This document shows, piece by piece, positions 6,455 through 38,189 of a stretch of 38,189 nt of DNA. Below the pieces are notes generated by a model. The model was not told where the DNA came from. It was given only the letters and a program-made list of their open reading frames with translations, and made no database searches. The translations under genes and the position numbers were made by a program. The stretch is from Planktomarina sp. (GTDB taxonomy: Bacteria > Pseudomonadota > Alphaproteobacteria > Rhodobacterales > Rhodobacteraceae). The first letter of the stretch is position 1. The number at the start of each line of letters is the position of its first letter. The stretch is taken from assembly GCA_020629235.1 (NCBI GenBank), contig JAHDDS010000010.1, positions 16,978 through 55,166 on the forward strand, given 5' to 3'.

Positions 6455-7209
6455 AGTACTGTTCCACTTCCTCAATAAACGCGTTTACCAGGCAGTGGAT
6501 CGGCACCGTGCCGATGGCAGCTCTGGCAAGGGTTCCCCCCCCTCAACGCGCACAATCACGCAACGTGTCGCTTCGCCCCACCGAAGACGAACGCACGCAC
6601 CTGTGATGCGCTTGTTCTCGACATCTTCGTCTTACGGACCATTGCGTTTTTTGGAAAATCGGATGCGCCGCACAGCCACCTGCCAGCCGCGTTGGCGATG
6701 GCAATACAGACCAGGACTGCGCACCCCAAATTCAATGAAATTTCAGGAAAATGTTTAGTTTCTGAGGCTTAAAGGCAATTTGAATTTCGCGAAAGTTATA
6801 TTCCCTCAGGGAAAATCCACCGTGAGTTGCAGCAAATTCCCGCTCAACCCGCGTCGTCAAATGGAATGGCAAGATGACAGTGGGCGAACAGGTCGCGAAT
6901 CAAATTGAATTTTCGGGGATTTTCGGGGGCGAAAAGGCAGCAATCAGCCATGAATCCGAAGCTGGCAAAGGTTGCTGGTGGCCGCCCAAACGCCCAACGC
7001 TCGGTCCAGCCAAGATTTTGAGCTGTCATTGAAGATCGCAACATATCGGTGCCCTGCTTGGTGGGCGTCTATATAGGCCAGCCCCCCGACAGCCACGGAC
7101 GGGCCAAGGAATTTGGCAGCACGCGAAAGATATGGGCAACCGATCAATGCGCGCACGGCACATAGGGGCAGACAATCTTTGCGCTTTGACCTGGTGGGCC
7201 CCAGGCAGA
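6455..7209. other. Gene-poor interval upstream of the RTX gene
   Basis: These 755 bases separate the RTX start from the end of the diguanylate cyclase gene. No convincing gene was seen. It is more AT-rich than its surroundings at about 6720-6830 and carries two perfect palindromes, TTTCGCGAAA (6785-6794) and TTCCCTCAGGGAA (6801-6813), plus a tandem ATTTTCGGGG repeat (6909-6928). The RTX promoter should lie here. A leftward open frame ending at 6944 has some protein-like character over about 6944-7170 but no credible start. Confidence 0.5.
6785..6813. promoter_or_regulatory. Pair of adjacent palindromes, possible operator for the RTX gene
   Basis: TTTCGCGAAA and TTCCCTCAGGGAA are both perfect inverted repeats, six bases apart, in an AT-rich stretch about 330-360 bases upstream of the RTX start codon. 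Their symmetry suits dimeric regulators. I know of no specific regulator for either sequence, and the distance from the start codon would imply a long leader. Confidence 0.3.
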
Positions 7210-8196
7210 TTAACTGGCCGTCAGCTGGGGACTGTAGAACATGTGCTGCCCACGCCCGTTGTTTTTTGACGCATAAAGCGCCAAGTCTGCGTCGCACAGC
7301 AATTGGTCTGGATTGGGCTTGGCATAGCCGGTGGAAAGCGTCGTGCCCGCGCTGCCGGATATTTCGCAGATTTGCCCGGCGTATCGCACAGGCACTTCTA
7401 GTTTTTCGATGATCCGCCGGGCAATGGCATCCAAAATTTCCCGATCCGTCAGACCCACAAACAGGATGACGAATTCGTCGCCCCCCACCCGCGCCACGCA
7501 GTCTTCTTTGCGGGTTTCAGATTCCAAGATCCGCGCCACTTCCACCAAAATGTGATCCCCCGCTGCGTGGCCATAGGTGTCGTTGACTGCTTTGAAATAG
7601 TCCAAATCCAGATGCATGCAGGCAAAGTCTTTGTCCCGGTTGATCAGCGTCTGCAACCGTTCCCCCATGGCGCGGCGGTTGGCCAGTCCGGTCAGCGCAT
7701 CGGAATTGGCCTGCGCCAGGGCTTTTTTGCGCGCTTCCACCAAGGTTTGGGTCAAGGCGCGGCTTTCCGCGATGGCCATCTTCTTGGCTTCCGTAAGATA
7801 CAGCATTTCAATCGCCAGATCGGTCCCCGCAAAATCGCTGTTGGTCAAACCAAACCGCTGCACCGCGTCCACCAGCCCGATGCCAAAGGACAGATTGATA
7901 AAGGTGAAGAAATTGCCCTGGGCGCAGACCCCTTTGAAACTGATGGATGGGTCGTCTTGAAAGTGCATGTGAATTTTGCGGCCATTCAGCGCCAAAAGAT
8001 CCGCAATTGTTTCGGTGCCGCGCGGTCGCGAAATGTGAAACGCATCCCACACCGACTGACCCTTCAAGACCGACGGCGCAATTTTGGCCAAGGTGGGGCC
8101 CACATGAACGATGGTCCCACGATCATCAAACTGGAAGTGCATGGGGCAAATGATGTCAAAGCACGAATGCATCGGGGTAAGATCACCAGTCGTCAT
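7210..8196 (-). CDS. Diguanylate cyclase with HNOBA sensor domain
   Basis: This 328-residue protein should make cyclic di-GMP from two GTP. Residues about 10-135 match the haem-NO-binding-associated (HNOBA) domain, including the FDIICPMHF and GPTLAKI segments. A helical, probably coiled-coil linker follows (about 130-165). The GGDEF domain (about 165-325) has an intact GGDEF signature at residues 238-242 and the DLDYFK and NDTYGH metal/substrate segments. An inhibitory I-site RKED lies at 229-232, five residues before the signature, so product feedback is expected. The start ATG overlaps the stop of the upstream H-NOX-like gene as ATGA, so the two are translationally coupled. In known systems H-NOX proteins control partner HNOBA or GGDEF proteins; the pairing here suggests the same, although this H-NOX lacks its haem ligand. 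Confidence 0.92.
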   Translation of the reverse strand: MTTGDLTPMHSCFDIICPMHFQFDDRGTIVHVGPTLAKIAPSVLKGQSVWDAFHISRPRGTETIADLLALNGRKIHMHFQDDPSISFKGVCAQGNFFTFINLSFGIGLVDAVQRFGLTNSDFAGTDLAIEMLYLTEAKKMAIAESRALTQTLVEARKKALAQANSDALTGLANRRAMGERLQTLINRDKDFACMHLDLDYFKAVNDTYGHAAGDHILVEVARILESETRKEDCVARVGGDEFVILFVGLTDREILDAIARRIIEKLEVPVRYAGQICEISGSAGTTLSTGYAKPNPDQLLCDADLALYASKNNGRGQHMFYSPQLTAS

Positions 8197-25059: not shown

Positions 25060-26379
25060 TCAGCTTCCGCCGGGTGATTTGGCCATGTTCCACAATGGCC
25101 CGAACTGCTTGAAGTGAAGCGCTTCCAAAATCACGGCGTTGGTGTTCAGGCTAAGCGATGTGTTCCAGTTGCCTGTGCTTTCATAGACCCCAGCCATCCA
25201 CCCCTGCCCGTCCCGGGCCAGGTGTTGAATCCGGTCCAGCCCTGCGTTGGTATATTCCGTGTCAAACAGCGCGTCCCAAGCATAGGTCGCTTTGGCCGAC
25301 TGGGTGCGCAAATCGTCATGGCGGCGCCCGTCGATGTCCACCACGGCCCAATCTGCGCCATTGGAAAACACAGACGAATAGACAAAATGGGGCGCTACAT
25401 CGACGTGGTCTTCGGAAACGAACGTGACTGTTCCTTCCGCCAGATAGCGCGCCTGCTGGGCTTCAAAGACGCGGTCGGCCATAAGGCGGCTTTCTGCGTC
25501 AAACCCCAATTCCAATCCCATCAGAATGTATGGTTCTGACAAAACGGGCGTCACCGTCCCAAAACGCGCAGCGGTGCGGGCATCGACGGGCACCTCTACC
25601 CCAGCGATGGTGCGCCAATTCAGCACCGGAATGGCCGACATCGCCCGCACCACATCCATCCCCCACAGCCCCGCTGCCCGCGCGCCATATTGTTCATATC
25701 CGATCCGCCCTTCTTGCAGTGCCATAAGGTCGGCCCCGTCCCGTGTGGTGCCGATCAACTGCCCGTTCTGCGTCATCTTGTCGAAGTCCCAAGACGAAAG
25801 GACGGTGCGAATATCAGGCCCAAACTGCGGCGCAAAACGTTCGACGGTGCGCAACGCCAACAGCAACCGCGCGATATCGAGGGCGGACCAACCAATGCCG
25901 TCAGGCGTCAGCGTATCGGCATAGTCGGTCATCCGAAGCGTTTGGGTATTGTACACTTTGTTGGGCAGGCTTGCATCGATCAGTTCCACGCGGGCCAGTG
26001 CCGTCACAAATGTCTGAAATCTGTGATCAAATTCGTCGCGTTCGATCACGCCAAGACGCATGGCAGACACCAAAGCAAAGATGTAACTGCCTTGATCCCA
26101 AAGCGTGGACGATGGGAACCCGTCCACAGAACTGACCCATCCCGTGTGCGGGTCCGTGTTGTTTTCGATGAAGTCCCACGCGATCCGCGCGGCCCTTTGA
26201 TCGCGAACATCCAGCGGTTGTTTTTCCGCAAGTTGAAAGTTTTCAGTGGCGTAAGGAATGGGCCGTTCGATGCTGCGCGCAAGCGCGGTGCTGACACCGT
26301 CCAAAGACACGGCGATCCCGGCAGCCGCCAAGAAAGCCAGTACAAATCCCAACGATTTTCCGCGTGCTATGCGATGCAT
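25060..26379 (-). CDS. DUF3131 family exported protein of the polysaccharide operon
   Basis: A 439-residue protein with an N-terminal signal or anchor (LGFVLAFLAAAGIAVSLDG). The remainder resembles DUF3131, an alpha/alpha-barrel family related to glucoamylase-like proteins. Characteristic segments are ARIAWDFIENNTDPHTGWVSSVDGFPSSTLWDQGSYIFAL, and near the end WMAGVYESTGNWNTSLSLNTNAVILEAL. Its start lies inside the GT2 gene (13-base overlap) with GAAAGGGC upstream, so it is the last gene of the tight operon. It is likely to process or bind the polysaccharide in the periplasm; no reaction is established. Confidence 0.85.
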   Translation of the reverse strand: MHRIARGKSLGFVLAFLAAAGIAVSLDGVSTALARSIERPIPYATENFQLAEKQPLDVRDQRAARIAWDFIENNTDPHTGWVSSVDGFPSSTLWDQGSYIFALVSAMRLGVIERDEFDHRFQTFVTALARVELIDASLPNKVYNTQTLRMTDYADTLTPDGIGWSALDIARLLLALRTVERFAPQFGPDIRTVLSSWDFDKMTQNGQLIGTTRDGADLMALQEGRIGYEQYGARAAGLWGMDVVRAMSAIPVLNWRTIAGVEVPVDARTAARFGTVTPVLSEPYILMGLELGFDAESRLMADRVFEAQQARYLAEGTVTFVSEDHVDVAPHFVYSSVFSNGADWAVVDIDGRRHDDLRTQSAKATYAWDALFDTEYTNAGLDRIQHLARDGQGWMAGVYESTGNWNTSLSLNTNAVILEALHFKQFGPLWNMAKSPGGS

Positions 26380-28076
26380 GCTTTTGCCCTTTCCATTTCA
26401 TAACCCAATGCTTTTTGCGGTGACCAACGCATCAGCAAGACAGCGCGCGACAACGCAATTCCATTCCAAGCCAGCCAGAACACATTCACCACAAGCATGG
26501 ACAAAGTGTGGTCCCGCGATCCGGCGATATGGGCCGCAATCCCGTAGACGGCGGCCGCTGCAAACACAGCCAGAAGGGACAAATGCGGCCACAAAAACCG
26601 CAACGCATTTTGGCCATCCAACGTCTTGGGCGTGGGCTTGAACCCAATCTTTTTGCGGCGAACCACCAGGGAAATGGCGTATAAAACGAACGGCAGCCCC
26701 ATCAGGTTTGCGGCCCGTGCCGCATGGACATCATGCCCTTTCATCCCAAGGACAAGCGCCAATTCCAAAGCCACAAGAAAGGGCACCAGGTGCAAGAAGA
26801 ATTCAACAGAATAGCTGTTCACCGGCGCGATGCCAGTGAACAATGCGAAGACCGGTGCCAGCAGCAAAAACGTGAAGGGGATCACCGCGAAATAGGACCA
26901 AAACGTCGCCAGATAGTGCAGCCCAATGCGCCACGGTATTTGCAACAAGCGCGACCAGAAACGATTGACGGCGATATCAATGCTGCCCCCCGAATACTTC
27001 AGGTTTTGCGCGGCCCAGGCCTCAACACTCCAAGGTGAAAGCATCCGGGCTTCCACTTGGGGATGGTACACAGATGTCCAGCCGTGGGCGTGCATATCGA
27101 TGGACGTCAAAATATCCTCGGATACGTGAAACCGGAACGGCTGTACGGGGGCGCGATGATCGGGATTAACCCCGGTTCGCGTTTTTAAGGCCACATCAAA
27201 CAGTGCCTCGCGCCGGTGAATGGACGCCGCACCGCAACAAAAACTTGCGCCATGGCGGTCCCGGCGGCGTTGAATAATATCGAAAAAGATTTGAGACGCG
27301 GACGCAAACGGGTCGTGCCCAATTTTCCACCATCCCATCCATTTCGTCCAAAACGGTTCACGCCCTTCCCCTTTTCTTTCCCCCAAACCACGTCCCTGCG
27401 GGACATCGCAAAACCAATGCGGCGTTTGCACCCAGGCCACCTTGGGGTCTTGAAAATAGCCCAGCGTGTTTTCCAAAAACGTCGCAAAAAAGCGTGTGTC
27501 AGCATCGGCCACCACGACGAACGCCCCGTCGGTGTGCCACAATGCATTGCGCAAGTTGCCGGCTTTGAAGCCCAGATTGGATTGGCGGGCAAAGTACTGC
27601 ACGTCGTGTTTTTGCGCCAAAGCCGCCAAAGCCGGGCGGTTGCCGTCGTCCAAAATCGACAGCTGGACCGTCCAGCCGCGCGGCACGCGCATGGCCAGTG
27701 CGGCTTTAAGGCTGTCTTCCACCAAGCCTTCTGCTTCGTCATATGTTGTCAAAAAGACATCCACGCTTCGGGCTGATTTGGGCCGGGCCGCACTGGGGCG
27801 CGCGCGGGCGCGGGGGCGTTCTTCCCAGATGTCGTAAAAGAAGAGGAACGTGCCCAAAAACATCGCCAGCTCTGCCCCAAACATCAGGCCGGAAAACCAA
27901 GGCGCGTCGGGGTTGAAGCTGTGCTGATACCGCCAGTTCAAATACCAAAGGCCCAGTGTCAACGCGACGACAGCGCAGCACTGCCAGAAATATTGCATGC
28001 GCCCAGACAAGTGATCAAAATGTGCAGGATGGCGCTTGGGCAGCCACCGGTAATACAGGTCTGCGTCCTGTGTCAT
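26367..28076 (-). CDS. Processive family 2 glycosyltransferase, cellulose-synthase-like
   Basis: A 569-residue membrane protein. Two spans lie near the N-terminus (about 30-50 and 62-82), then a GT-A catalytic domain, then about five C-terminal spans. The UDP-binding and catalytic acids are present: LDDG (142-145), DADT (191-194) and SED (319-321, in place of the usual TED). The product-binding QxxRW motif reads QNLKY (357-361), so Arg and Trp are replaced by Lys and Tyr. Length and layout suit a BcsA-like or NdvB-like synthase that extrudes a beta-glycan. No PilZ domain is visible, so direct c-di-GMP control is not indicated. It overlaps the upstream fusion gene (ATGA) and the downstream DUF3131 gene. 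Confidence 0.88.
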   Translation of the reverse strand: MTQDADLYYRWLPKRHPAHFDHLSGRMQYFWQCCAVVALTLGLWYLNWRYQHSFNPDAPWFSGLMFGAELAMFLGTFLFFYDIWEERPRARARPSAARPKSARSVDVFLTTYDEAEGLVEDSLKAALAMRVPRGWTVQLSILDDGNRPALAALAQKHDVQYFARQSNLGFKAGNLRNALWHTDGAFVVVADADTRFFATFLENTLGYFQDPKVAWVQTPHWFCDVPQGRGLGERKGEGREPFWTKWMGWWKIGHDPFASASQIFFDIIQRRRDRHGASFCCGAASIHRREALFDVALKTRTGVNPDHRAPVQPFRFHVSEDILTSIDMHAHGWTSVYHPQVEARMLSPWSVEAWAAQNLKYSGGSIDIAVNRFWSRLLQIPWRIGLHYLATFWSYFAVIPFTFLLLAPVFALFTGIAPVNSYSVEFFLHLVPFLVALELALVLGMKGHDVHAARAANLMGLPFVLYAISLVVRRKKIGFKPTPKTLDGQNALRFLWPHLSLLAVFAAAAVYGIAAHIAGSRDHTLSMLVVNVFWLAWNGIALSRAVLLMRWSPQKALGYEMERAKACIA

Positions 28077-29422
28077 GCCGTACGCCCCAGGGGAAATTCA
28101 ACAACCGTCTGTTCGGCGGGTGCCCTGGATGGCCCAGACAATGCCATAAGGTTCAGCGGCAAAGTCTTCGCCAGACCATAGTCCATCGCCCAGTCGCGCC
28201 CCACCAACATGCGATCGACCCAAAGGCCGTGGCCCACCACAGTGCCGGGCCCAATCCAAGACGCCGTCACCGAAGTATTGCGCCCGATCTTTGCGCCGCG
28301 TTCCAAAATGACCGGTCCCGACAGAACGCTGTTTTCGTGGACATCCACAGCGGGTCCCACCACGGTTTGCGGCGAAAGGTCAGCCGATGGATGCACGCGG
28401 GCGCTGCGGTGCACCCGTGCGCCCGTCCGCCATTTCAGATACCCGTCCGCCATGCAGCCGTCCTGGCCATCCTGGGCCACCACGAAATCAAAAAACCCTT
28501 GGGCGGAGGTGACAGGCCACACCTGTGCCGTGTGATGCACCCCGGACGTTGTCCCCATCACCCGCTCCAGTCGTTGGGTCGCCTGCCCCAGCGGGCTGTC
28601 GGGCAACCCCGTCCCCATCGTCATCGCGCGTTGGGACAGCATCGTTATCGCGTTGTGATCTTTTTGACCAACTGTTGTGACGTCCGCGCCCGCTTCGCAG
28701 CCCAGCTGATTTGTCACTTCTTGGGACGTTGCGACCACCAACGGGTCGATGACCAGGCAGTCCCCCGCCCAGCCAAAGCCTTGGTCCCAAGCATCCTGCA
28801 CGGCACGCCAGGCCGAAGTTTGTCCAAACGGGCACGCCCGATGGAACCGCAGATTGCAAAACGACGGTTTGACGTGCAACGCCGCATCGCGCACCTGACC
28901 GGCCCCCGGGCCGACGCTGACCGTTATGTTTGTAACCCCCAAGGCCACCACAGTATCAAACGCCCGCTGCAACAGGGACTTGCCGCCGAAGCGCAGCAAA
29001 ACGGGCGGCAGATGAGACCCCAATGGCCCCAAAAGCGGCGCGCTTTGATGGGCCAATATAACGGCATGCACCCCAATCCTGGCCGCACGCAATACGTCTG
29101 GCTTTTTCAGCAGATCTTTCGCGTGCGCCGCGACATAAACGTGTCGATCAATGCCCAACTCCTGCAATTGGGTGCGCACTGGCGCCCGCGCGGCCACACC
29201 CGTCACCATCCCTTTGCCCACAGTTGTGACCGCTTCCAAAAGACTGGCCAATTCGCTGTGGCGCAGGGTCGACAGATTTGGAAAATCAAGAACCAACGCC
29301 GCCATACCGTCCGCTTTCGCCCTTTGGGTTGCGTCCATGATCGCCGCGCACAAAGACCGCGCCAGAGATCTTGAAAAGGTAACGTGGCGGATCTTACCTT
29401 GGTCCTTCACCAGATGGGTCAT
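28073..29422 (-). CDS. STAS-like / degenerate nucleotidyltransferase / beta-helix fusion protein
   Basis: A 449-residue protein starting at ATG 29422 with AGGAAAGGA upstream. Residues about 1-108 read as a STAS-type anti-sigma-antagonist-like domain (AALVLDFPNLSTLRHSELASLLEA). Residues about 117-300 resemble sugar-phosphate nucleotidyltransferases: GVHAVILA, GGKSLLQRAFDTVVALGVTNITVSVG and GDCLVIDP. The usual GxGTRxxPLT...PK loop reads HQSAPLLGPLGSHLPPVLL, so the catalytic Arg and Lys are missing. Residues about 350-430 have hexapeptide-like repeats (RVHPSADLSPQTVVGPAVDVHENS and IGPGTVVG). It is coupled by ATGA overlaps to the acyltransferase and GT2 genes. Perhaps it is a regulatory or scaffold relative of GalU-type enzymes; I do not know a characterised member. 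Confidence 0.7.
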   Translation of the reverse strand: MTHLVKDQGKIRHVTFSRSLARSLCAAIMDATQRAKADGMAALVLDFPNLSTLRHSELASLLEAVTTVGKGMVTGVAARAPVRTQLQELGIDRHVYVAAHAKDLLKKPDVLRAARIGVHAVILAHQSAPLLGPLGSHLPPVLLRFGGKSLLQRAFDTVVALGVTNITVSVGPGAGQVRDAALHVKPSFCNLRFHRACPFGQTSAWRAVQDAWDQGFGWAGDCLVIDPLVVATSQEVTNQLGCEAGADVTTVGQKDHNAITMLSQRAMTMGTGLPDSPLGQATQRLERVMGTTSGVHHTAQVWPVTSAQGFFDFVVAQDGQDGCMADGYLKWRTGARVHRSARVHPSADLSPQTVVGPAVDVHENSVLSGPVILERGAKIGRNTSVTASWIGPGTVVGHGLWVDRMLVGRDWAMDYGLAKTLPLNLMALSGPSRAPAEQTVVEFPLGRTA

Positions 29423-30546
29423 GCCGTTTGTCCTTTCCTGACAGCGCCAAAGCGGATGGGACGGGGCAACGGCCCCAAGCCAATGGTCCAAGCCAAGGCG
29501 CGCATTTTTTCCAAAAGCCGCACGAAGAACAGGGTGCAAAACACGCCAACGGTGATTTTGACCCCCACCAAAACGATGGGTGCGACCGTCCATTGGCGCG
29601 TGGCGATTTCCACCAAATCAAGGAAAATGGGGTGGCACAGATAAATCCCGAAGGAATATTTTGCCACCGCACTGAACCACAGCGGCCAAGTTTCCGCCCG
29701 CGCCATGAAGGCAGCCCCAAACAGTACCAACGGCATCAGAAAATCCGCCCAGAAGCCGGGGGTAAAATGAAACGGCCAACTGCCTGTCTGCGCGGTCAAA
29801 ACTGTGGCATAAAGTTTGATGGCGAACAGCCCGCCGCCGCTGATCATCAAAACGGGCCACCAGGATTTGCCAAAGATATTGCGCTGCCACAGCCCATACA
29901 ACGCGCCAGCCGCCATACCGTATCCGCAATAGGTCAAAATTTTCACGCCCCGCAGCCAAAACGACAGCATTTCGTGGTCGTAAAAGTGGCCCCACAAGTA
30001 CCCGTCGGCCCAACGCTTGATCACCAAACCCAACAGAACCATCAGTCCCAAGATCGGCCATTTTGCGGCCAGTCGAAACAGCGGGAAAAACAGCAGCAAC
30101 CCAAACAGGGTCGGAATGAAATGCATGTGATATTTGGACGTCCCTAAGATCACATATTCAACCCAGACCCAGGGCGACTGCAATTGCTGCCAAAGCCAGG
30201 CGTCATACCCAAAATGCCAAGCCTTATGCAGGGAATAGAACGCGTAAAACACCGTCCAAAATGCGAACGGCAGCAGAAGGCGGCGCGCCTGTTGGCTGAT
30301 GCTGGCCAGATACCCGCGCGGGCGCGTGTCCAAAGCCATCAACAGCAAAAAGATAGAGATGATCAAAAACAATTCCGTCCGGGCGGTATAGATCACGGCA
30401 CGCAACAAAAGTGGGGCCAGCCGGTCCGTAAATTCCGCGTCGGGAAAGGGTTGGCCCGCTGCGTCACTGGTGGCGTGTAATCCCACCATGGACACGCCCG
30501 CCGTCAGGCGCAAAGCGTCTATCCAAGTTTGTCTTTGCGCTGTCAT
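29419..30546 (-). CDS. Acyltransferase 3 family membrane protein (polysaccharide O-acylation)
   Basis: A 375-residue protein with about ten membrane spans. The N-terminus RQTWIDALRLTAGVSMVGLHA matches the acyltransferase 3/OafA pattern (xxDxLRxxAxxxVxxxH), and SFGIYLCHPIFLDLV is the conserved late segment. GGAGG lies about six bases before the ATG. It is first in the leftward operon and overlaps the next gene by four bases. It probably adds acetyl or succinyl groups to the glycan made by the GT2 enzyme. Confidence 0.88.
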   Translation of the reverse strand: MTAQRQTWIDALRLTAGVSMVGLHATSDAAGQPFPDAEFTDRLAPLLLRAVIYTARTELFLIISIFLLLMALDTRPRGYLASISQQARRLLLPFAFWTVFYAFYSLHKAWHFGYDAWLWQQLQSPWVWVEYVILGTSKYHMHFIPTLFGLLLFFPLFRLAAKWPILGLMVLLGLVIKRWADGYLWGHFYDHEMLSFWLRGVKILTYCGYGMAAGALYGLWQRNIFGKSWWPVLMISGGGLFAIKLYATVLTAQTGSWPFHFTPGFWADFLMPLVLFGAAFMARAETWPLWFSAVAKYSFGIYLCHPIFLDLVEIATRQWTVAPIVLVGVKITVGVFCTLFFVRLLEKMRALAWTIGLGPLPRPIRFGAVRKGQTA

Positions 30547-30608
30547 CCCGCCCTCCGCTTTCGAATTGGAACTTGGCTGATCGCGCTAAACAAACCATGA
30601 ACATATAA

Positions 30609-30632
30609 CGATTTTTTCGTCAGCGATTTTTT
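30609..30632. promoter_or_regulatory. Direct repeat between the divergent OmpA and polysaccharide genes
   Basis: CGATTTTTT occurs at 30609-30617 and again at 30624-30632, a 15-base period. The first copy is also part of ACGA-TTTTTT-CGT. Lying in the shared upstream region, it may bind a regulator of one or both transcripts. No regulator is known to me for this sequence. Confidence 0.3.
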
Positions 30633-30672
30633 AAGACCTGGGCCCTACAACAGTCGCAGGAGGACCGGAGAG

Positions 30673-31164
30673 ATGAATAAAAAGTTTCTGTTTTTTGCCT
30701 GCATATTTTTGGCAACTTGGGCCGCCCCCAGCACCGCAGACCGACAAGACTGTGGGGATTATGCGGGGTGCACTGTCGAAGCGGCCCTGGCGGCTTTGCC
30801 CCCGTCAGCGCGTGAAAGCCATGTCTTTTTTCCCGAAGGTGGCAGCCACTTGGACAATGCGGCCCAAGCGCAGTTGACGCTTTTGGTGGATGCGCTGCGA
30901 TCGCCATTGTTGACCGATACATGTTTGCGATTGGAAGGTCATGCGGACCCCGGCGGGCCAGAAGATGTCAACCTGCGCATTTCTTGGTTGCGGGCGGAAG
31001 CCGTGCATCAGTATTTGGCCGATGCCATGGGCGGCGATCTGCCGTCCATTGAATTGGCGGCCTTCGGCGAAAGCAAACCCATGAAAGATCTTCCAAAAAC
31101 CAGCATTTTGCATCGGCGGGTCGCTTTGATGGCCCGCACCTGCCCCGGTGCGCCCGGCGGCTGA
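30673..31164 (+). CDS. Small exported OmpA-domain protein
   Basis: A 163-residue protein with a signal peptide (MNKKFLFFACIFLATWAAPSTA). The C-terminal OmpA-like peptidoglycan-binding domain shows LRLEGHADPGG and the NLRISWLRAEAVHQYLADA helix that replaces the usual NxxLSxxRAxxV. AGGAGG lies nine bases before ATG. It is divergent from the polysaccharide operon (126 bases between starts) and may anchor that system to the wall. Two cysteines near the N-terminus (DCGDYAGC) could form a disulfide. Confidence 0.85.
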   Translation: MNKKFLFFACIFLATWAAPSTADRQDCGDYAGCTVEAALAALPPSARESHVFFPEGGSHLDNAAQAQLTLLVDALRSPLLTDTCLRLEGHADPGGPEDVNLRISWLRAEAVHQYLADAMGGDLPSIELAAFGESKPMKDLPKTSILHRRVALMARTCPGAPGG

Positions 31165-31178
31165 AGAAAACCCGATGT

Positions 31179-32252
31179 TTATATCAGCACGGCTTGCCCG
31201 GTTCGCGCACTTTCTTGGGCGGCCAAGCCAAGTGCCACGGCGGCGGCCCCGTCGCCCAAAGTGACTTCGACCGGGCCTTGGCCCAAAGCAGCGGCGCGGA
31301 ATTTTTGGTGTTGATAAAAGGTGGACCCATTGTGATCGCCTGCGGCAAGAATGGCCGGGTCCACGGGAATGTCTTCGCGAAGCGGCCCGCGTGGGTCCCG
31401 CGGGGACACGATCAACTGCGGCGTGGGCGGCGTGCCCAAGTGGTCCGGCCAGAACCGCCCCGGCCCCGGCACAAGACATTCGATCTTGCCTTTGGGTCCC
31501 ACGCCCGAAATCTCTTCTTGATATGTGCTGCCTTCGGCAAACATGCATAATTCCAGCATCGCGCGCATGCCATTGGCAAAATCCACCAGAACATATCCGT
31601 GATCCCAGATGTCCGGCGTCTGTCCGTCATAGACTTCTGCGACATGGTTGTGCGCCTGCCCCGCGCTGGCCATCACCCGCACCGCTTCTGCACCCGTTGC
31701 AAGCCGCATCAGGTCAAAGAAATGGCAGCATTTTTCCACCAATGTCCCGCCCGTGTTGCGATTGAAACGGTTCCAATCGCCGATCTTGGGCAAAAAAGGA
31801 AAGCGGTGTTCGCGAATGGACAGCATTTGAAGCCCCCCCGTCACCGACTTCTGGCGCGATAAAAAGGCGGCGACGGGCGGCATGTACCGGTATTCCATCG
31901 CAACCCAAACGGGCGCTTTGTAGTCGCGTGCAAAATGGGCCACGCGGGTTGCTTCTTCGCTGGCAGTATAAAGGGGTTTTTCCACCAAAATCGGCAGTGT
32001 TTTGCGCGCGGCGATGGCTTCCAGCTGGCCCAAATGAAGGTGATTGGGGCTGACAATCACCACCGCATCCACGGCGTCCACCACATCTTCCAGCGATGCC
32101 GCAACAGTGGCCCCACCCGCCAACTGTGCGGCGTGGGCGGCCAGATCGGGCACCGGGTCATACACGTGGGTGATCCGGGTGTCGTCCAGCAGGTTCACAT
32201 TCTGAATGTGTTCTTGGCCCATCATGCCACAGCCGATTAAACCGTATTTCAT
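31179..32252 (-). CDS. Gfo/Idh/MocA family oxidoreductase
   Basis: A 357-residue protein starting at ATG 32252, where GLIGCGMMGQEHI gives the Rossmann GxGxxG, with GAAGGAAG just upstream. The family EKP motif is in PILVEKPLY. The catalytic-region histidine lies in GGTLVEKCCHFFDL. It should act on a sugar or inositol derivative with NAD(P). It lies ten bases after the GntR gene and probably forms an operon with it. Opposite lies a monooxygenase/AKR/flavin reductase/TRAP set. Some Gfo/Idh relatives are NAD-dependent glycosidases, including sulfoquinovosidases, so glycoside cleavage is a second possibility. Confidence 0.85.
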   Translation of the reverse strand: MKYGLIGCGMMGQEHIQNVNLLDDTRITHVYDPVPDLAAHAAQLAGGATVAASLEDVVDAVDAVVIVSPNHLHLGQLEAIAARKTLPILVEKPLYTASEEATRVAHFARDYKAPVWVAMEYRYMPPVAAFLSRQKSVTGGLQMLSIREHRFPFLPKIGDWNRFNRNTGGTLVEKCCHFFDLMRLATGAEAVRVMASAGQAHNHVAEVYDGQTPDIWDHGYVLVDFANGMRAMLELCMFAEGSTYQEEISGVGPKGKIECLVPGPGRFWPDHLGTPPTPQLIVSPRDPRGPLREDIPVDPAILAAGDHNGSTFYQHQKFRAAALGQGPVEVTLGDGAAAVALGLAAQESARTGQAVLI

Positions 32253-32262
32253 TGTGCTTCCT

Positions 32263-32940
32263 TCATGCCAGCCGCGACAGATACCGCGCCGCGTCCGTGT
32301 CAAACCAAGTTGTGGAAATTTCCGTCAAAGCGCCGTCACGCGCCCAAGCCCGCCGGGTCACATGCCCGGCCTTATCTTGGTGGCCCAACCTGTTCCACGC
32401 GGGCCAGGGTGCAAGACCAACGCTGTCTTCAACATGGGTGATCCAAATGTCAAAACTTTCGCGATAGGTCAGGTATAAAGATTCCGACAACATGCCGTCA
32501 TCCAACGCCGCATCGGCGGGCAAGGCCGCAAAGATTTCTTCCAGCGCCACGGCCACCCCGTCCAAGGCCCGGATGCGCCGGATGCGCCAGGCCAGATCGA
32601 CGGCCAACGCTTTGGGGGCGGCACACCACGCCACATCGATGACTTGCGCTGTGGGCAGGCCCGAAGACCCAGGCCGTTCCAGCCGAAAGAATGCATAAAC
32701 CGACGCATCCCGATCCGCCTTCTGGACATAATTCCCAGACCCTTGAACCCGCCGCAAATGGCCGCGCGTTTCCAACTCGGCCAGGGATTTGCGCAATGTA
32801 CCCACGGAAATGCCCAAGTCAGCGGCCATGTCCCGTTCGGCTGGCAAGCGGCTGCCCACTGCGATGCGACCGGCCCGAATGTCGCGGGTCAGCGTTTCCG
32901 CAATAGCGATGTATTTGGGCAATGCGCCGGGATGGGACAT
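32263..32940 (-). CDS. GntR-family (HutC-type, UTRA) transcriptional regulator
   Basis: A 225-residue regulator starting at ATG 32940. The winged helix at residues about 5-70 includes RIAVGSRLPAERDMAADLGISVGTLRKSLAELETRGHLRRVQGSGNYV in separate conserved blocks. The C-terminal part (about 90-225) has the UTRA effector-domain pattern, ending in ITHVEDSVG...TTWFD. HutC-type members bind sugar or amine effectors. It is divergent from the monooxygenase gene; the shared region holds candidate operators. It likely controls both transcripts of the locus. Confidence 0.9.
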   Translation of the reverse strand: MSHPGALPKYIAIAETLTRDIRAGRIAVGSRLPAERDMAADLGISVGTLRKSLAELETRGHLRRVQGSGNYVQKADRDASVYAFFRLERPGSSGLPTAQVIDVAWCAAPKALAVDLAWRIRRIRALDGVAVALEEIFAALPADAALDDGMLSESLYLTYRESFDIWITHVEDSVGLAPWPAWNRLGHQDKAGHVTRRAWARDGALTEISTTWFDTDAARYLSRLA

Positions 32941-32955
32941 TTCTTTGGTCCAAAA

Positions 32956-32989
32956 TTGATACAGTATTGATGCACTCAAAACTTGATGC
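32956..32989. promoter_or_regulatory. Candidate GntR operators in the divergent region
   Basis: Three near-identical TTGAT(A/G)C words lie at 32956-32962, 32967-32973 and 32983-32989. The first two surround a perfect odd palindrome ATACAGTAT (32959-32967). They fall between the GntR start and the monooxygenase start, where autoregulatory sites of such regulators are expected. Confidence 0.45.
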
Positions 32990-33005
32990 TACGCAAGATG
33001 AAAAG

Positions 33006-34184
33006 ATGCGGCCTGCCAGGGGGGAATCGTTGACCGTTGTTCCAGTGACATCACCAGATCTGACCGGGGCCGAGGTGTCTTGGTTTTCGGCGCTGTGTTC
33101 CGATGACTATCAGTTCTTGGGGGTGCCTGATGGCGACCTGCGGTCCAGCTGGGCCCACTGCCGCGATATTTTGTTGGAAGCTGAACGGCAGGGGTTTCGC
33201 AACATTCTGTGCCCGTCATCCTTTCAGGTGGGCCAGGACACGCTGTCTTTTGTGGCCGGATGTGCCCCGTTGACGGACCGCATCAATATGCTGGCAGCCG
33301 TGCGGTGCGGGGAAATGCAACCCATCATGTTGGCCCGCACAATCGCCACGCTGGACCACATGTTGCAGGGGCGTTTGACGGTGAACATCATCTCCAGCGA
33401 CTTTCCCGGCGAAAAGGCGGACAGCGGCTTTCGATACCAACGCTCGCGCGAGGTGGTGGAGATTTTGAAGCAGGCCTGGACCCAGGACGAAATCAATTAC
33501 CAAGGCGACGTGTATCAGTTTGAAGGTCTGACAACCGATCCCGCCCGCCCGTATCAAACCGGGGGGCCGCTGCTGTATTTTGGGGGTTACAGCCCGGCAG
33601 CGTTGGATTTGTGCGGCCAGCACTGCGACGTATATTTGATGTGGCCAGAACCTAAAGAAAACATCGCCCAACGGATGAAAGACGTGAATGCGGTGGCGGA
33701 AAAATATGACCGCACATTGGATTACGGCCTGCGGGTGCACATGATCGTGCGCGACACAGAAGCCGAGGCAAAGGAATACGCTGAATATATCGCCAGTAAG
33801 TTGGACGATGATTACGGCAAGTTGATCCGCGACCGGGCCCATGACAGCACGTCCTTGGGCGTGGCCCATCAGGCCAAGGCGCGCGAATTGGCGGACAAGT
33901 ATGGATACGTGGAACCGCACCTGTGGACCGGCGTGGGCCGGGCCCGGTCTGGGTGTGGCGCGGCATTGGTGGGATCGGCCGATCAGGTGCTGTCTGAAAT
34001 CGAAGACTACAAAAAGATGGGCATTCGGGCCTTTATTTTCTCGGGCTATCCGCACATTGACGAATGCAAGCATTTTGGCCGCCTGGTGATGCCGCATCTG
34101 GACACTGCGTCCCTGCCGCACGCCTATGGCCGGGTGCCGTCTGACACACCAAACACGCCCTTGGGCGTAGGAGACCGCCGCTGA
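33006..34184 (+). CDS. SsuD-like FMN-dependent monooxygenase (LLM class)
   Basis: A 392-residue luciferase-like monooxygenase. Candidate starts are ATG 32970 and ATG 33006. I choose the latter because the first lies deep in the divergent control region. It closely follows the alkanesulfonate monooxygenase pattern, with GFRNILCPSSF, GRLTVNIISSDFPGEKADSG, TTDPARPYQTGGPLLYFGGYSPAALDL and ALVGSADQVLSEIEDYKKMGIRAFIFSGYPHIDE. Such enzymes take reduced FMN and O2 and oxidise a C-S bond, releasing sulfite and an aldehyde. The flavin reductase it needs is two genes downstream, with one-base overlaps throughout. The order monooxygenase, AKR, flavin reductase matches the sulfoquinovose monooxygenase pathway (SmoC, SmoB, SmoA). 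Confidence 0.88.
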   Translation: MRPARGESLTVVPVTSPDLTGAEVSWFSALCSDDYQFLGVPDGDLRSSWAHCRDILLEAERQGFRNILCPSSFQVGQDTLSFVAGCAPLTDRINMLAAVRCGEMQPIMLARTIATLDHMLQGRLTVNIISSDFPGEKADSGFRYQRSREVVEILKQAWTQDEINYQGDVYQFEGLTTDPARPYQTGGPLLYFGGYSPAALDLCGQHCDVYLMWPEPKENIAQRMKDVNAVAEKYDRTLDYGLRVHMIVRDTEAEAKEYAEYIASKLDDDYGKLIRDRAHDSTSLGVAHQAKARELADKYGYVEPHLWTGVGRARSGCGAALVGSADQVLSEIEDYKKMGIRAFIFSGYPHIDECKHFGRLVMPHLDTASLPHAYGRVPSDTPNTPLGVGDRR

Positions 34185-35065
34185 TGGAGCGTATAAATCT
34201 GACCCCCGATCTGTCCTTTTCGCGCATTGTCTATGGCATGTGGCGTTTGGGGGACGATGCCAACACCACGCCCGAACATGTCACCGCCAAGGTGCAAGCC
34301 TGTTTGGATCAGGGCATCACCACCATGGACCAGGCCGACATATATGGCGGCTATATGGCCGAAGAAGTTTTGGGCGCGGCCATGACCCCTGCCCTGCGCA
34401 ATCAGATCGAAATCGTCACCAAATGCGACATCGTGGCCCCGGTGGGCCGGTATGCAGACGCGCCGGTGAAATACTATGACACCAGCCGCGCCCACATATT
34501 GGCATCGGTCGACCATTCGTTGCAGCTGATGAAGATTGACCACATCGATGTGCTGCTGATCCACCGGCCTGATCCGTTGATGAACCACTTTGAAACCGGC
34601 GCCGCCCTGGACGAGGTGGTGGCATCGGGCAAAGTGCGCGCCGTGGGTGTGTCCAATTTTCGGCCTTGGGACTGGTCCTTGTTGCAATCGGCCATGAAGA
34701 CCAAGCTGGTCACCAATCAAATCGAACTGTCCGTGACCCATCACACCCCCTTCACCAACGGGGACCTGGCGCATTTGCAAGAATTGGGCGTGTCGCCCAT
34801 GGCGTGGTCCCCCCTGGGGGGCGGATCGCTGTTCATGAACGGGCCGGTGATGGACATCCTGAAACGCATCGGGGACGCCCAAGGGGTGGACGGGTCTGCC
34901 GTGGCGGTGGCCTGGTTGTTGGCGCATCCGGCCAAAATCTTGCCCGTCATGGGCACCAACAATTTGGACCGCATTGCCAAAATCGCCGATGCCACCAAAG
35001 TGACCATCGACCGCCCCACTTGGTTTGAAATTTACACCGCCGCTTTGGGCGAAGAGGTCGCCTGA
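34184..35065 (+). CDS. Aldo/keto reductase, YdhF/SmoB-like
   Basis: A 293-residue AKR with catalytic Asp49, Tyr54, Lys80 and His127 visible in TTMDQADIYGGY, IVTKCD and LLIHRPDP. The YDTSRAHI and MAWSPLGGG segments resemble E. coli YdhF. It shares one base with the monooxygenase stop (TGATG). In the sulfoquinovose monooxygenase pathway an AKR (SmoB) reduces the 6-oxo-glucose product to glucose; this gene is placed correctly for such a role. For another sulfonate it could reduce the aldehyde released by desulfonation. Confidence 0.88.
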   Translation: MERINLTPDLSFSRIVYGMWRLGDDANTTPEHVTAKVQACLDQGITTMDQADIYGGYMAEEVLGAAMTPALRNQIEIVTKCDIVAPVGRYADAPVKYYDTSRAHILASVDHSLQLMKIDHIDVLLIHRPDPLMNHFETGAALDEVVASGKVRAVGVSNFRPWDWSLLQSAMKTKLVTNQIELSVTHHTPFTNGDLAHLQELGVSPMAWSPLGGGSLFMNGPVMDILKRIGDAQGVDGSAVAVAWLLAHPAKILPVMGTNNLDRIAKIADATKVTIDRPTWFEIYTAALGEEVA

Positions 35066-35562
35066 TGGTATCCATGATCGACACCAGCCCCAGTGATGGG
35101 CGTGCGCTGCGCACAGCCTTTGGGCGCTTTGCGACCGGGGTGACAGTGATCACCACGTTGGACGACGACGGCAAACCCTTTGGGATCACGGCCAACAGTT
35201 TTGCGTCGGTGTCTTTGGACCCGCCGTTGTTGCTGTGGTCGCCAGCCAAAGGATCGGGGCGCCACCGGGTGTTCACCCAGGCGCGGCATTTTGCGGTGCA
35301 CGTGATGCGCGACGATCAACGCGCGATCTGTGACGGGTTTGTCAAAGACGCCTATGCCTTTGACGGTGTGGTGTTTGGGTCAAACGAACACGGCGTGCCA
35401 GTGTTGGAGGAGGCACTGGCACGCTTTGAGTGTCGCCGCTTCGGGTTGACCGATGCGGGCGACCACACCCTCGTTTTGGGGGAAGTGCAGCGGTGCGCGA
35501 TCGGGGATGGCGCGCCGCTGACGTTTTTTGCCGGCGCGTACGGCGGCTTTGCGACCCAATAA
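35065..35562 (+). CDS. NAD(P)H:flavin oxidoreductase
   Basis: A 165-residue protein of the HpaC-like flavin reductase family (FMN-binding split barrel). ALRTAFGRFATGVTVITT, GITANSFASVSLDPPLLLWSPAK and TFFAGAYGGF are the typical segments. It supplies reduced FMN to a two-component monooxygenase, here most likely the SsuD-like enzyme two genes upstream. The start overlaps the AKR stop by one base (TGATG). Confidence 0.92.
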   Translation: MVSMIDTSPSDGRALRTAFGRFATGVTVITTLDDDGKPFGITANSFASVSLDPPLLLWSPAKGSGRHRVFTQARHFAVHVMRDDQRAICDGFVKDAYAFDGVVFGSNEHGVPVLEEALARFECRRFGLTDAGDHTLVLGEVQRCAIGDGAPLTFFAGAYGGFATQ

Positions 35563-35602
35563 AAACAAACGGGCGCAAAGAAAAACTGGGGAGGAACCGC
35601 CC

Positions 35603-36181
35603 ATGGGCGTGTTGACCGGGCTTTTGCGGCCCGTGGAAATGCTCAATTCACGACTGCTGGCTGTGGCCAAAGCGTTGGCCGCTGGATTGCTGGCAGTGAT
35701 GGTGGCGGTGGTGGTGTATCAGATCGTCATGCGGCTGATATCGCCCGCCGGGTGGACCACCCCTGCCGCAAAGTTTTTGATGCTGTGGATGATCGGTCTG
35801 GCCGCCCCTGTGGCGTACCGACATGGGGGGTTCGTGGGCATTGACCTGCTGGAACGGTCGCTGCCCCGCGTATTGTCGAACATTCTGATTCTGTTGATCC
35901 TGCTGATGTCCGCTGCGGTCATTGGCACGTGCATCCTGTTGGGGTGGGATATGGTGGACAGTTTCACCGGCAAAGGCACCATTTCCGGGCTGAAAATCAG
36001 CCTGGGATGGGCGGATATGAAGGATGTGAAATTCCGCAATTGGCACGCCTTTGCATCGCTGTTCGTGTGCTTTTGCCTGTTGGGGTTGGTGTGCGTCGAA
36101 CTGATCCTGCGCCATCTGGTACGCATGGGGGGTGGGGCTGATGGCCTGACACCCCTGGGTGATACGGGGGCGTTGGACTGA
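35603..36181 (+). CDS. TRAP transporter small permease (DctQ)
   Basis: A 192-residue membrane protein starting at ATG 35603, with GGGGAGG before it. It has four spans in the DctQ pattern: AKALAAGLLAVMVAVVVYQIVMR, FLMLWMIGLAAPVAYRHGGFVGID, LSNILILLILLMSAAVIGTCILLGWDM and FASLFVCFCLLGLVCVELILRHL. It partners with the DctM permease, whose ATG overlaps its stop by one base. The gap to the flavin reductase is 40 bases, so one transcript is likely. Confidence 0.9.
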   Translation: MGVLTGLLRPVEMLNSRLLAVAKALAAGLLAVMVAVVVYQIVMRLISPAGWTTPAAKFLMLWMIGLAAPVAYRHGGFVGIDLLERSLPRVLSNILILLILLMSAAVIGTCILLGWDMVDSFTGKGTISGLKISLGWADMKDVKFRNWHAFASLFVCFCLLGLVCVELILRHLVRMGGGADGLTPLGDTGALD

Positions 36182-37686
36182 TGTTGCTTTGGCTTCTTCC
36201 GCTGTTTTTGATCCTGTTGATGATCGGTCTGCCCGTGGCCTTGGGGCTGTTACTGGCACCGGGCGCTTTGGTGGGCATTTTCGGGGACGGCAACACGCCG
36301 TCAAACTTCAAAGCCATGGCGCAGTTGTACCGCAACCTGTTCAACGGCATGGACAGCTTTCCGTTGATGGCCCTGCCCTTCTTCTTGTTGGCGGGCGAGA
36401 TTATGAACCGCGGTGGCATCACCACGCGCTTGGTGGAATTTTCACAGGCTTTCATGGGCCATCTGCGCGGCGGCCTGGCCCATGTGAACATCCTGTCGTC
36501 CATTTTGTTTGCGGGGTTGTCGGGATCGGCCGTGGCGGACACATCGGCCCTGGGGTCCACGCTGATCCCCGCCATGGAAAAGAACGGATACACCCGCCGC
36601 TTCGCCGCCGCTGTCACAGCCGCCAGTTCGGTGATCGGCCCCATCATCCCGCCGTCGGGGATTATGATCATCTATGCCTATGTGATGGAAGAATCTGTGG
36701 CCGCCCTGTTTGCGGCGGGTATCGTCCCCGGCATTATGGTGGGCCTGGGGTTGATGCTGGTGGTGCGGCTGATGGCCGACAAATACGATCTGCCCAAAGC
36801 AGAACGCATCGTCACCAAAGACCAGACCATTGGGCGCATGGAAGGCATCGTCGCGTCGCTTTTGGTGCGGATCAACTTGGCCGCGATCTTTCTGCTGGTG
36901 GCGCAAATCGTGGGCAGCATCGCGGGCCTGGCCCCGAACCCGTGGATCACGTTCATCATCATGGTGCCCTTTGCCCATCTGGTGATGGTCTGGATGCGCG
37001 GCCAAGTCAGCGGTGATTTTCGCACCGTATGCAAAAAGGCCGCCGCCCCGTTGCAAACGCCCATCATCATTTTGGGGGGCATTCTGACCGGCTGGTTCAC
37101 CCCCACCGAGGCGTCCGTCATCGCGGTGGTGTACGCGTTGATCGTCAGCTTTGTGATCTTGCGGTCCATGACGCTGCGCGATTTGTGGGACCTGTTGGCC
37201 AAATCGTCTGTGGCCAGTGCCGCGGTGCTGCTGCTGGTGGGGGCGGCGGTGGCGTTCAAGACTGTCATTGCCATTTCCCATCTGCCGGAACTGATGACAG
37301 AAACGATCCTGGGGCTGTCGGACAACCCGCTGATCATTCTGTTTTTGATCAACATCCTGCTGTTCATCGTGGGCATGTTCTTGGACGCAGGCCCCGCCAT
37401 CATCATCTTGGGTCCGATCTTGGCGGACGTGTTCTTGGGCATCGACGTACACCCTGTGCATTTCGCCATCATCATGTCGGTGAACCTGACCGTGGGGTTG
37501 GCAACGCCCCCCATGGGGCTTGTCTTATTCGTGGCCAGTTCGGTCAGTCGCGAAAAGGTGGAAGTCATCGCCAAGGCCATCTTGCCCTTCCTGGCGGTAG
37601 AGGTTTTGGTGATCTTCCTGATCACCTATTTCCCCGCCATTTCACTGACCGTGCCGCGCCTGTTGGGGTATGTACCATGGCCGTGA
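36181..37686 (+). CDS. TRAP transporter large permease (DctM)
   Basis: A 501-residue protein with many membrane spans and DctM signature segments: FPLMALPFFLLAGEIMNRGGIT, GSAVADTSALGSTLIPAMEKNGY, SSVIGPIIPPSGIMIIYA, TGWFTPTEASVIAVVYAL, GMFLDAGPAIIILGPIL and GLATPPMGLVLFVASS. It drives uptake with a Na+ or H+ gradient. A non-family insertion after the first half (MADKYDLPKAERIVTKDQ...) makes it longer than the common 425 residues. The binding protein follows after a 131-base gap with an inverted repeat. Confidence 0.93.
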   Translation: MLLWLLPLFLILLMIGLPVALGLLLAPGALVGIFGDGNTPSNFKAMAQLYRNLFNGMDSFPLMALPFFLLAGEIMNRGGITTRLVEFSQAFMGHLRGGLAHVNILSSILFAGLSGSAVADTSALGSTLIPAMEKNGYTRRFAAAVTAASSVIGPIIPPSGIMIIYAYVMEESVAALFAAGIVPGIMVGLGLMLVVRLMADKYDLPKAERIVTKDQTIGRMEGIVASLLVRINLAAIFLLVAQIVGSIAGLAPNPWITFIIMVPFAHLVMVWMRGQVSGDFRTVCKKAAAPLQTPIIILGGILTGWFTPTEASVIAVVYALIVSFVILRSMTLRDLWDLLAKSSVASAAVLLLVGAAVAFKTVIAISHLPELMTETILGLSDNPLIILFLINILLFIVGMFLDAGPAIIILGPILADVFLGIDVHPVHFAIIMSVNLTVGLATPPMGLVLFVASSVSREKVEVIAKAILPFLAVEVLVIFLITYFPAISLTVPRLLGYVPWP

Positions 37687-37733
37687 TTTTTCTTTACGCA
37701 GGGGACGCTGTGGCGCACCCTGCATTCACCGGT

Positions 37734-37788
37734 GCGGTGGGTTTCACCCACCCTGCCATTCAACCATAGGGTGGGTGAAACCCACCGC
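37734..37788. repeat. 21-bp perfect inverted repeat, REP-like element
   Basis: The left arm (37734-37754) and right arm (37768-37788) are exact inverse complements of 21 bases, separated by a 13-base loop. Each arm is itself a near palindrome, GGTGGGT-TTC-ACCCACC, so several folds are possible. A further 6-bp stem CGCACC/GGTGCG (37714-37719, 37731-37736) overlaps it. The GTGGGTTTCACCCACC core looks like a repeat found in many bacterial genomes (from memory). It separates DctM from DctP and could protect or terminate part of the mRNA. Confidence 0.75.
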
Positions 37789-37817
37789 CACAAAAAACAA
37801 GCATAGGGAGGAAACAC

Positions 37818-38189
37818 ATGCTTAAAACATTCACCAAAGCAGCACTTGCGGCTGGCTTTATGATGACATCCGCCGTGGCGGGTTGGGCCGCTGGCCACGC
37901 GGAATACACCATCCGCGCCACTGCCAATTCCAACGAAAACGACGAAGACTATGACGGTCTGATCGTGTTCAAAAACTTCGTGGAAAGCGCGTCCAACGGT
38001 GCCATCGCTGTGGAACTGTTCATCGGCACGCAGCTGTGTTCGAAAGGCGCTGAATGTCTGCAAGGTGTGGCCGATGGGTCCATCGACGTGTACATTTCCA
38101 CATCCGGTGGGGCCGCTGGCCTGTTCCCATACGTGCAAGTTCTGGACCTGCCTTACCTGATGGCCGACGACCGCGTGGCGGAAGCCGTG
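37818..38189 (+). CDS. TRAP transporter substrate-binding protein (DctP), cut by the window end
   Basis: The first 124 codons of a DctP-type periplasmic receptor, with GGGAGG about seven bases before the ATG. A signal peptide covers about residues 1-25 (MLKTFTKAALAAGF ... AVAGWAAG). EYTIRATANSNENDEDYDGLIVFKNFVE, ELFIGTQLCSKGAECLQGVADGSIDV and VLDLPYLMADD fit the family N-lobe. The substrate-determining arginine lies beyond the window. This receptor follows its permeases, and the REP-like repeat precedes it. Its acidic, calcium-poor start gives no hint about the ligand. Confidence 0.93.
   Translation, partial: MLKTFTKAALAAGFMMTSAVAGWAAGHAEYTIRATANSNENDEDYDGLIVFKNFVESASNGAIAVELFIGTQLCSKGAECLQGVADGSIDVYISTSGGAAGLFPYVQVLDLPYLMADDRVAEAV

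Follow-up and report, generated by a model that had tools for sequence, protein, structure and literature searches.

A gene cluster at positions 31179-38189 of the window, a 38,189-nucleotide stretch of Planktomarina sp. contig JAHDDS010000010.1, very probably encodes a sulfolytic sulfoquinovose monooxygenase (sulfo-SMO) pathway, as judged from its predicted proteins, in which sulfoquinovosyl glycerol or sulfoquinovose, a sulfosugar of plants and algae, would enter the cell through a tripartite ATP-independent periplasmic (TRAP) importer. All of the genes named in an initial annotation are present and belong to the families stated there (Gfo/Idh/MocA, GntR plus UTRA, bacterial luciferase family, aldo/keto reductase, flavin reductase, DctQ, DctM, and DctP), and the divergent layout that it described is borne out by the listing of open reading frames and by Pfam: the Gfo/Idh/MocA and GntR/UTRA genes lie on the minus strand, and those for SmoC, SmoB, SmoA, DctQ, DctM, and part of DctP on the plus strand. 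The window ends with its contig (C18), in an assembly of 2.59 Mb that is 87% complete.

In the proposed pathway, DctP would capture sulfoquinovose in the periplasm, either free or as a glycoside, and DctQM would import the captured sugar using an ion gradient. Cytoplasmic SqgA, a GH188 enzyme, would then hydrolyze the glycoside via transient oxidation at C3 by NAD+; SmoA would make reduced flavin mononucleotide (FMNH2), with which SmoC and O2 would cut the C-S bond to yield sulfite and 6-dehydroglucose, and SmoB would reduce the latter to glucose. The GntR/UTRA regulator would bind an ATTGAT direct repeat between the divergent transcripts and respond to a pathway sugar. All of these enzyme activities, the substrate of the importer, and operator binding are predictions drawn from sequence comparison.

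Sulfoquinovosidase and importer

The Gfo/Idh/MocA-fold gene (sqgA; 31179..32252, minus strand, 357 amino acids) is assigned by its sequence matches as a GH188 NAD+-dependent sulfoquinovosidase. The predicted protein falls in the sequence family of ArSqgA and FlSqgA; it is 51.7% identical to ArSqgA and matches PDB chains 8zn9 (E 3.2e-136, the best), 8qc2 (E 1.1e-108), and 8qc3 (E 2.6e-106), and 8qc2 is named as GH188 in PMC11465081. Nine active-site residues of ArSqgA are listed in PMC10755693 (Lys107, Tyr136, Glu163, Arg166, Leu170, Lys172, Glu189, His193, and His321); the window protein keeps counterparts of eight, all except Glu163, and these include the three sulfonate contacts Arg166, Leu170, and Lys172. 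The proposal that this protein takes the place of a GH31 enzyme is upheld by the match to 8qc2 and the retained residues, and a search for GH31 genes, which matched 6 of 14 control genomes, found none in the Planktomarina assembly (87% complete). We also considered an inositol dehydrogenase for this gene and rejected it, as the NCBIfam score was 97.6 against a cut-off of 355 and the inositol dehydrogenase 4hkt matched at only 9.4e-15. Since SqgA would require NAD+ and its N terminus opens directly with the nucleotide-binding motif, we infer that the glycoside would be hydrolyzed inside the cell, having been imported whole.

The TRAP set of DctP, DctQ, and DctM is present in the genome, with DctP split over two contigs. 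The small permease DctQ (35603..36181, plus strand; Pfam DctQ 8.3e-17) and the large permease DctM (36181..37686, plus strand; Pfam DctM 3.8e-104, NCBIfam TIGR00786 above its cut-off) share one base at 36181. They are followed by the first 124 residues of the solute-binding protein DctP (37818..38189, plus strand; Pfam DctP 3.3e-10), cut by the contig end, and a further part lies at the start of contig C119 (G000:C119:3-623), where it is 83% identical to the DctP of a relative (L002) over residues 149-355 of that relative.

To gauge conservation of the cluster we used the best 80 of 577 confirmed SmoC relatives from a protein search of genome contigs, a sample that is 81-88% identical to the window protein, biased toward near relatives, and by record titles mostly from Rhodobacteraceae-type bacteria. 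In tblastn comparisons SmoB was found near SmoC in all 80 loci, the GntR regulator in 78, SqgA in 77, SmoA in 71, and the TRAP genes in 47, 13 of the 80 loci having less than 8.8 kb of downstream sequence. This gene neighborhood is more than chance.

A separate order sample of 196 genomes (E cut-offs of 1e-150 for SmoC, 1e-130 for DctP, and 1e-100 for SqgA) contained SmoC in 92 genomes, SqgA in 103, and DctP in 77. SqgA accompanied SmoC in 91 of the 92, always within 12 kb, and accompanied DctP in all 77, within 12 kb in 75 and on different contigs in G077 and G084 (Fisher p 3e-32, uncorrected for relatedness). DctP was present in 65 of the 92 SmoC genomes, 63 times within 12 kb; the Planktomarina genome, with its split DctP, was scored as a miss. 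Every one of the 12 genomes having SqgA without SmoC carried DctP 6.1-8.1 kb from SqgA, at 69-80% identity to the L002 protein.

Eight SmoC-less loci were fetched, six from these 12 genomes and two being DctP loci of a class sample (L088-L093, L096, and L097). Pfam and NCBIfam assigned the genes of L091 to IclR, an ABC-type ATPase, CCP_MauG, a PfkB kinase, a tagatose-diphosphate-type aldolase, sulfoquinovose isomerase (the best family, below its own cut-off), an aldose epimerase, and an aldehyde dehydrogenase nearest to the succinate-semialdehyde type, with the TRAP genes and sqgA interspersed among them and two end genes of unclear relevance. When the L091 proteins were searched by tblastn against the other seven loci, the kinase and isomerase were found in all seven, joined in six by the aldolase, epimerase, and dehydrogenase; in L093 this search found no aldolase, epimerase, or dehydrogenase. 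We read these loci, from their gene content, as a sulfoglycolytic Embden-Meyerhof-Parnas-like (sulfo-EMP-like) pathway, incomplete in L093. Because the two pathways have in common the sulfosugar, SqgA, the TRAP genes, and a di-heme gene discussed below, the natural cargo of the importer would be sulfoquinovose or its glycoside. The association thus supports an importer that tracks the sulfoquinovosidase and not the route of desulfonation, and it fits the uptake of sulfoquinovosyl glycerol or sulfoquinovose.

Two other accounts of the importer differ in how well they survive. In the narrower one, which we consider possible though on balance unlikely, only free sulfoquinovose is imported and the glycosides cleaved by SqgA enter otherwise; the results do not directly separate the two ligands, but the importer follows SqgA (77/77) more strictly than it follows SmoC (65/77), which favors a glycoside cargo. 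In the other, the enzymes degrade sulfoquinovose while the TRAP genes, neighbors by chance or co-regulation, serve isethionate, a carboxylate, or a sugar acid, and for this there are points that weigh against TRAP import of the sulfosugar. As a class, the binding proteins of TRAP transporters mainly take carboxylates. In 33 of the 80 loci, 5 of them with short sequence, no TRAP genes were found beside SmoC, and 26 of the 91 other SmoC genomes lack the DctP orthologue, so that the pathway does not need this importer. An AlphaFold2 model of the L002 orthologue, built on 38 of 44 extracted orthologues (mean predicted local distance difference test score 80, predicted template modeling score 0.80, residues 1-25 and 204-228 poorly modeled), has IseP, which binds isethionate, as its nearest fold and SiaP as the next, with almost equal scores for the sulfonate binder and the sialic-acid binders. 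The likeness to IseP (PDB 8t9t), which has the same fold, a ligand of the sulfonate class, and 22% identity to DctP, may serve as a weak hint to the ligand. A further point touches SqgA: the cited Glu163 is a different residue in the PDB chain at the common numbering, and the Glu one place later is kept. Even so, a separate cargo seems improbable given that all 77 DctP genomes have SqgA, in 75 of them nearby, and that DctP orthologues also lie within a second, unrelated sulfoquinovose pathway.

Desulfonating enzymes and regulation

The predicted FMNH2-dependent sulfoquinovose monooxygenase gene, smoC, occupies 33030..34184 on the plus strand. Its product matched PDB chains 7oh2 (E 1.9e-208; 291 of 383 residues identical, 76%) and 7olf (E 1.8e-205), which we take to be SmoC proteins although their PDB labels are generic, and the next chain followed at 5.5e-56. 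The initial annotation described this protein as an SsuD-like monooxygenase of a sulfo-SMO variant, and the phylogeny set beforehand as a check placed it with SmoC and apart from SsuD and MsuD. In a quick maximum likelihood tree of 91 rows, made up of 78 of the 80 loci (the other two, short and TRAP-less, were left out) and 13 others, 85 SmoC rows including the window and the two PDB chains fell on one side of a branch with a Shimodaira-Hasegawa-like approximate likelihood ratio test (SH-aLRT) support of 99. Three SsuD/MsuD rows fell on one side of a separate branch (SH-aLRT 100), and the three leftover rows (Novosphingobium, Rhizobium WSM4643, and Emticicia) did not form one group. A rival in which the substrate of this enzyme is an alkanesulfonate or a different sugar sulfonate, in an SsuD/MsuD-type sulfur-scavenging locus, is hardly credible: SsuD and MsuD do align with the protein along its length, and its best NCBIfam matches are alkanesulfonate models, but these lie far below their cut-offs (241 against 518.2 for TIGR03565), identity to annotated SsuD proteins is 34-36%, the tree groups are separate, and a sulfoquinovosidase is present in 91 of 92 SmoC genomes. 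A distant SmoC-like monooxygenase, of about 51% identity, was seen on a plasmid of Emticicia oligotrophica (Bacteroidota; L101 6489-12417) beside a sodium/solute symporter and a GH95 enzyme.

The start of smoC needs revision, from the ATG at 33006 first chosen to the more likely TTG at 33030, because most relatives begin at the homologous MT(V/I)VP codon (judged by eye from printed upstream regions) and because a GGGGGG stretch precedes the TTG, the ATG lying directly behind the conserved TGCTACGCAAG element. The most likely starts for SqgA, the GntR regulator, and DctQ are the ATG codons at 32252, 32940, and 35603.

The aldo/keto reductase gene smoB (34184..35065, plus strand) encodes a presumed 6-dehydroglucose reductase; 199 of its 293 residues (68%) are identical to PDB 7bby (E 5.6e-128), presumably SmoB, in agreement with the earlier SmoB-like assignment. 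It is followed in the same transcript by smoA (35065..35562, plus strand), a flavin reductase (Pfam Flavin_Reduct 2e-36; NCBIfam FerA best, below its own cut-off) and the presumed supplier of FMNH2. The one-base overlaps reported for this run were found as TGATG at 34184 between smoC and smoB and at 35065 between smoB and smoA. With the DctQ start at 35603, chosen for the GGAGG in front of it, smoA and dctQ do not overlap and are separated by 40 bases.

The GntR/UTRA regulator (32263..32940, minus strand; Pfam GntR and UTRA) is probably the regulator of this same locus. Between the divergent transcripts, at 32955..32971 on the plus strand, stands ATTGATACAGTATTGAT, a direct repeat of ATTGAT with an 11-base period and a probable binding site or promoter element. 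The pattern ATTGATNNANNATTGAT was found upstream of SmoC in 78 of the 80 loci (not in L037 or L067) and nowhere else in the 1,505,235 bp of these loci; the looser ATTGATN5ATTGAT occurred upstream of SmoC in 79 loci, with 2 matches elsewhere, and was not found in the six sulfo-EMP-like loci examined. Within the Planktomarina genome ATTGATNNANNATTGAT has one match, and its backward control none. The neighboring GntR/UTRA protein is the likely binder of the 17-base motif. Direct reading of the sequence also revealed a perfect 17-base inverted repeat in the gap between dctM and dctP (37736..37786, plus strand; arms 37736-37752 and 37770-37786), possibly an mRNA-stabilizing or attenuating hairpin.

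Variation in transport genes and a linked di-heme protein

The distribution of TRAP genes on the SmoC tree requires at least 12 changes among 83 labelled rows, a count made with 30 of 88 inner branches weak and with some TRAP-less rows having limited downstream sequence. Plasmid records with at least 60% SmoC identity numbered 11. Of the five examined, those from Ruegeria sp. TM1040, Rhizobium sp. SL42, Roseivivax sp. THAF197b, and Paracoccus seriniphilus share the gene order of the cluster, TRAP genes included, and the one from Marinovum algicola has an ATP-binding cassette (ABC) transporter in place of TRAP. This TRAP-less plasmid, pMaD9 (L103 7110-18255), carries on one strand a transcriptional regulator, an SqgA-like dehydrogenase, SmoC, SmoB, SmoA, an acetyl-esterase-like gene that might, at a guess, encode a sulfolipid deacylase, a second dehydrogenase, and the ABC sugar transporter. 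For the Marinovum ABC binding protein no PDB chain matched at E 1e-15, and kinship to a known sulfoquinovosyl-glycerol binder was not established. An ABC importer as the general substitute for TRAP was rejected: a Marinovum-type ABC binding protein occurs in 9 of the 33 TRAP-less loci and one of alpha-glucoside type in 6, the other 18 having neither in reach, and among the 47 TRAP loci the corresponding counts are 0 and 10. We likewise rejected a dedicated sulfite exporter adjoining the cluster, for which a PF03601-type gene was found in only 3 of the 80 loci (L009, L056, and L061) and not in the Planktomarina genome; such a gene does lie downstream of the cluster in Ruegeria TM1040 and Rhizobium SL42. 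In a class sample of 289 genomes, SmoC (E <=1e-120) was found in 6 and DctP (E <=1e-100) in 9. Outside the family of the Planktomarina genome, G406 and G464 have the two separated by about 4.4-4.5 kb, and in G386 they are on different contigs.

A gene for a MauG/MbnH-like di-heme cytochrome c peroxidase travels with the TRAP importer in both pathways. In the Planktomarina genome this CCP_MauG gene is at G000:C119:4026-5342 (L095), separated from the further part of DctP by a bicarbonate-transporter-type gene and a Memo/AMMECR1 gene on the opposite strand; in L091 it is at 5627-7444. Starting at most 10 kb downstream of the SmoC start, it was found in 32 of 47 TRAP loci and 0 of 33 TRAP-less ones (31 of 39 and 0 of 28 among loci with at least 8.8 kb of room), and it is present in all eight SmoC-less sulfo-EMP-like loci. 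Homologues at E <=1e-110 occur in 71 of the 196 genomes. The closer ones (4.4e-140 or better) occur in 64, 61 of which have DctP, within 10 kb in 57, and one of the three DctP-less exceptions is the Planktomarina genome with its split gene; conversely, 16 of the 77 DctP genomes lack a close homologue. Its presence in both pathways means that peroxide derived from SmoC does not explain the di-heme gene. One conjecture, which we regard as doubtful, is that TRAP and the periplasmic di-heme protein form a portable uptake module for sulfoquinovose glycosides common to two chemically unrelated pathways, the di-heme protein doing an oxidative step for uptake or maturing a periplasmic partner. We found no paper linking sulfoquinovose with cytochrome c peroxidase by title or abstract.

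Upstream of the cluster, translations read by eye at 25060-31164 suggest two membrane proteins, one glycosyltransferase-like and one acyltransferase-like, along with an OmpA-like protein, perhaps an exopolysaccharide region.

Known systems and the role of the importer

The names SmoA, SmoB, and SmoC stem from the sulfo-SMO pathway of Agrobacterium tumefaciens, which the window resembles in SmoC and SmoB by sequence and in having a flavin reductase in the same transcript. It differs in having a GH188 enzyme where Agrobacterium has a GH31 sulfoquinovosidase, and in a GntR/UTRA regulator that is in line with sqgA and divergent from smoCBA. Uptake differs as well, since the window has TRAP DctPQM and the Agrobacterium pathway, according to PMC9594981, is served by a sulfoquinovosyl-glycerol ABC transporter.

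Closer still are the sulfo-SMO clusters of marine Roseobacter bacteria, in which GH188 enzymes are described as near-universal in PMC10755693, so that the enzyme set found here, SmoABC with a GH188 enzyme and no GH31, is not new. The cluster in the window appears to belong to this published group, and its variant feature is a TRAP importer common to two pathways. The TRAP uptake proposed initially gains support from the association of DctP with SqgA, and the idea of a lone variant does not stand beside the published Roseobacter set. Sulfo-EMP clusters with GH188 enzymes (Arthrobacter AK01 and others, in the same paper) likewise have SqgA, and the eight SmoC-less loci here share with the window both SqgA and the same importer; this type differs from the window in its isomerase-kinase-aldolase route, the lack of SmoC, and, in three of our eight loci, an IclR match.

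Less has been described about the TRAP importer than about the enzymes, which form a known set. The words "trap" and "transporter" do not occur in the main text of PMC10755693 as available, figures aside, nor does "trap" in the available parts of PMC13372026, PMC12890257, and PMC9594981; in that of PMC12421959 it occurs 3 times, in passages concerning ABC and not TRAP importers. Searches by title and abstract found no paper on TRAP uptake of sulfoquinovose or on sulfoquinovose import in Roseobacter, and none linking sulfoquinovose with Dinoroseobacter; Liu et al. 2023 (ISME J) and Sharma et al. 2022 (PNAS) fell outside the search and may describe a transporter.

About 10 billion tons of sulfoquinovose are produced and degraded each year, according to PMC10755693. 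A TRAP binding protein tied to a sulfoquinovosidase in two pathways offers a specific marker gene, and its binding of sulfoquinovosyl glycerol is accessible to direct assay. Transport of a sulfosugar by this importer, if true, would extend the range of a class of transporters known chiefly for carboxylates.

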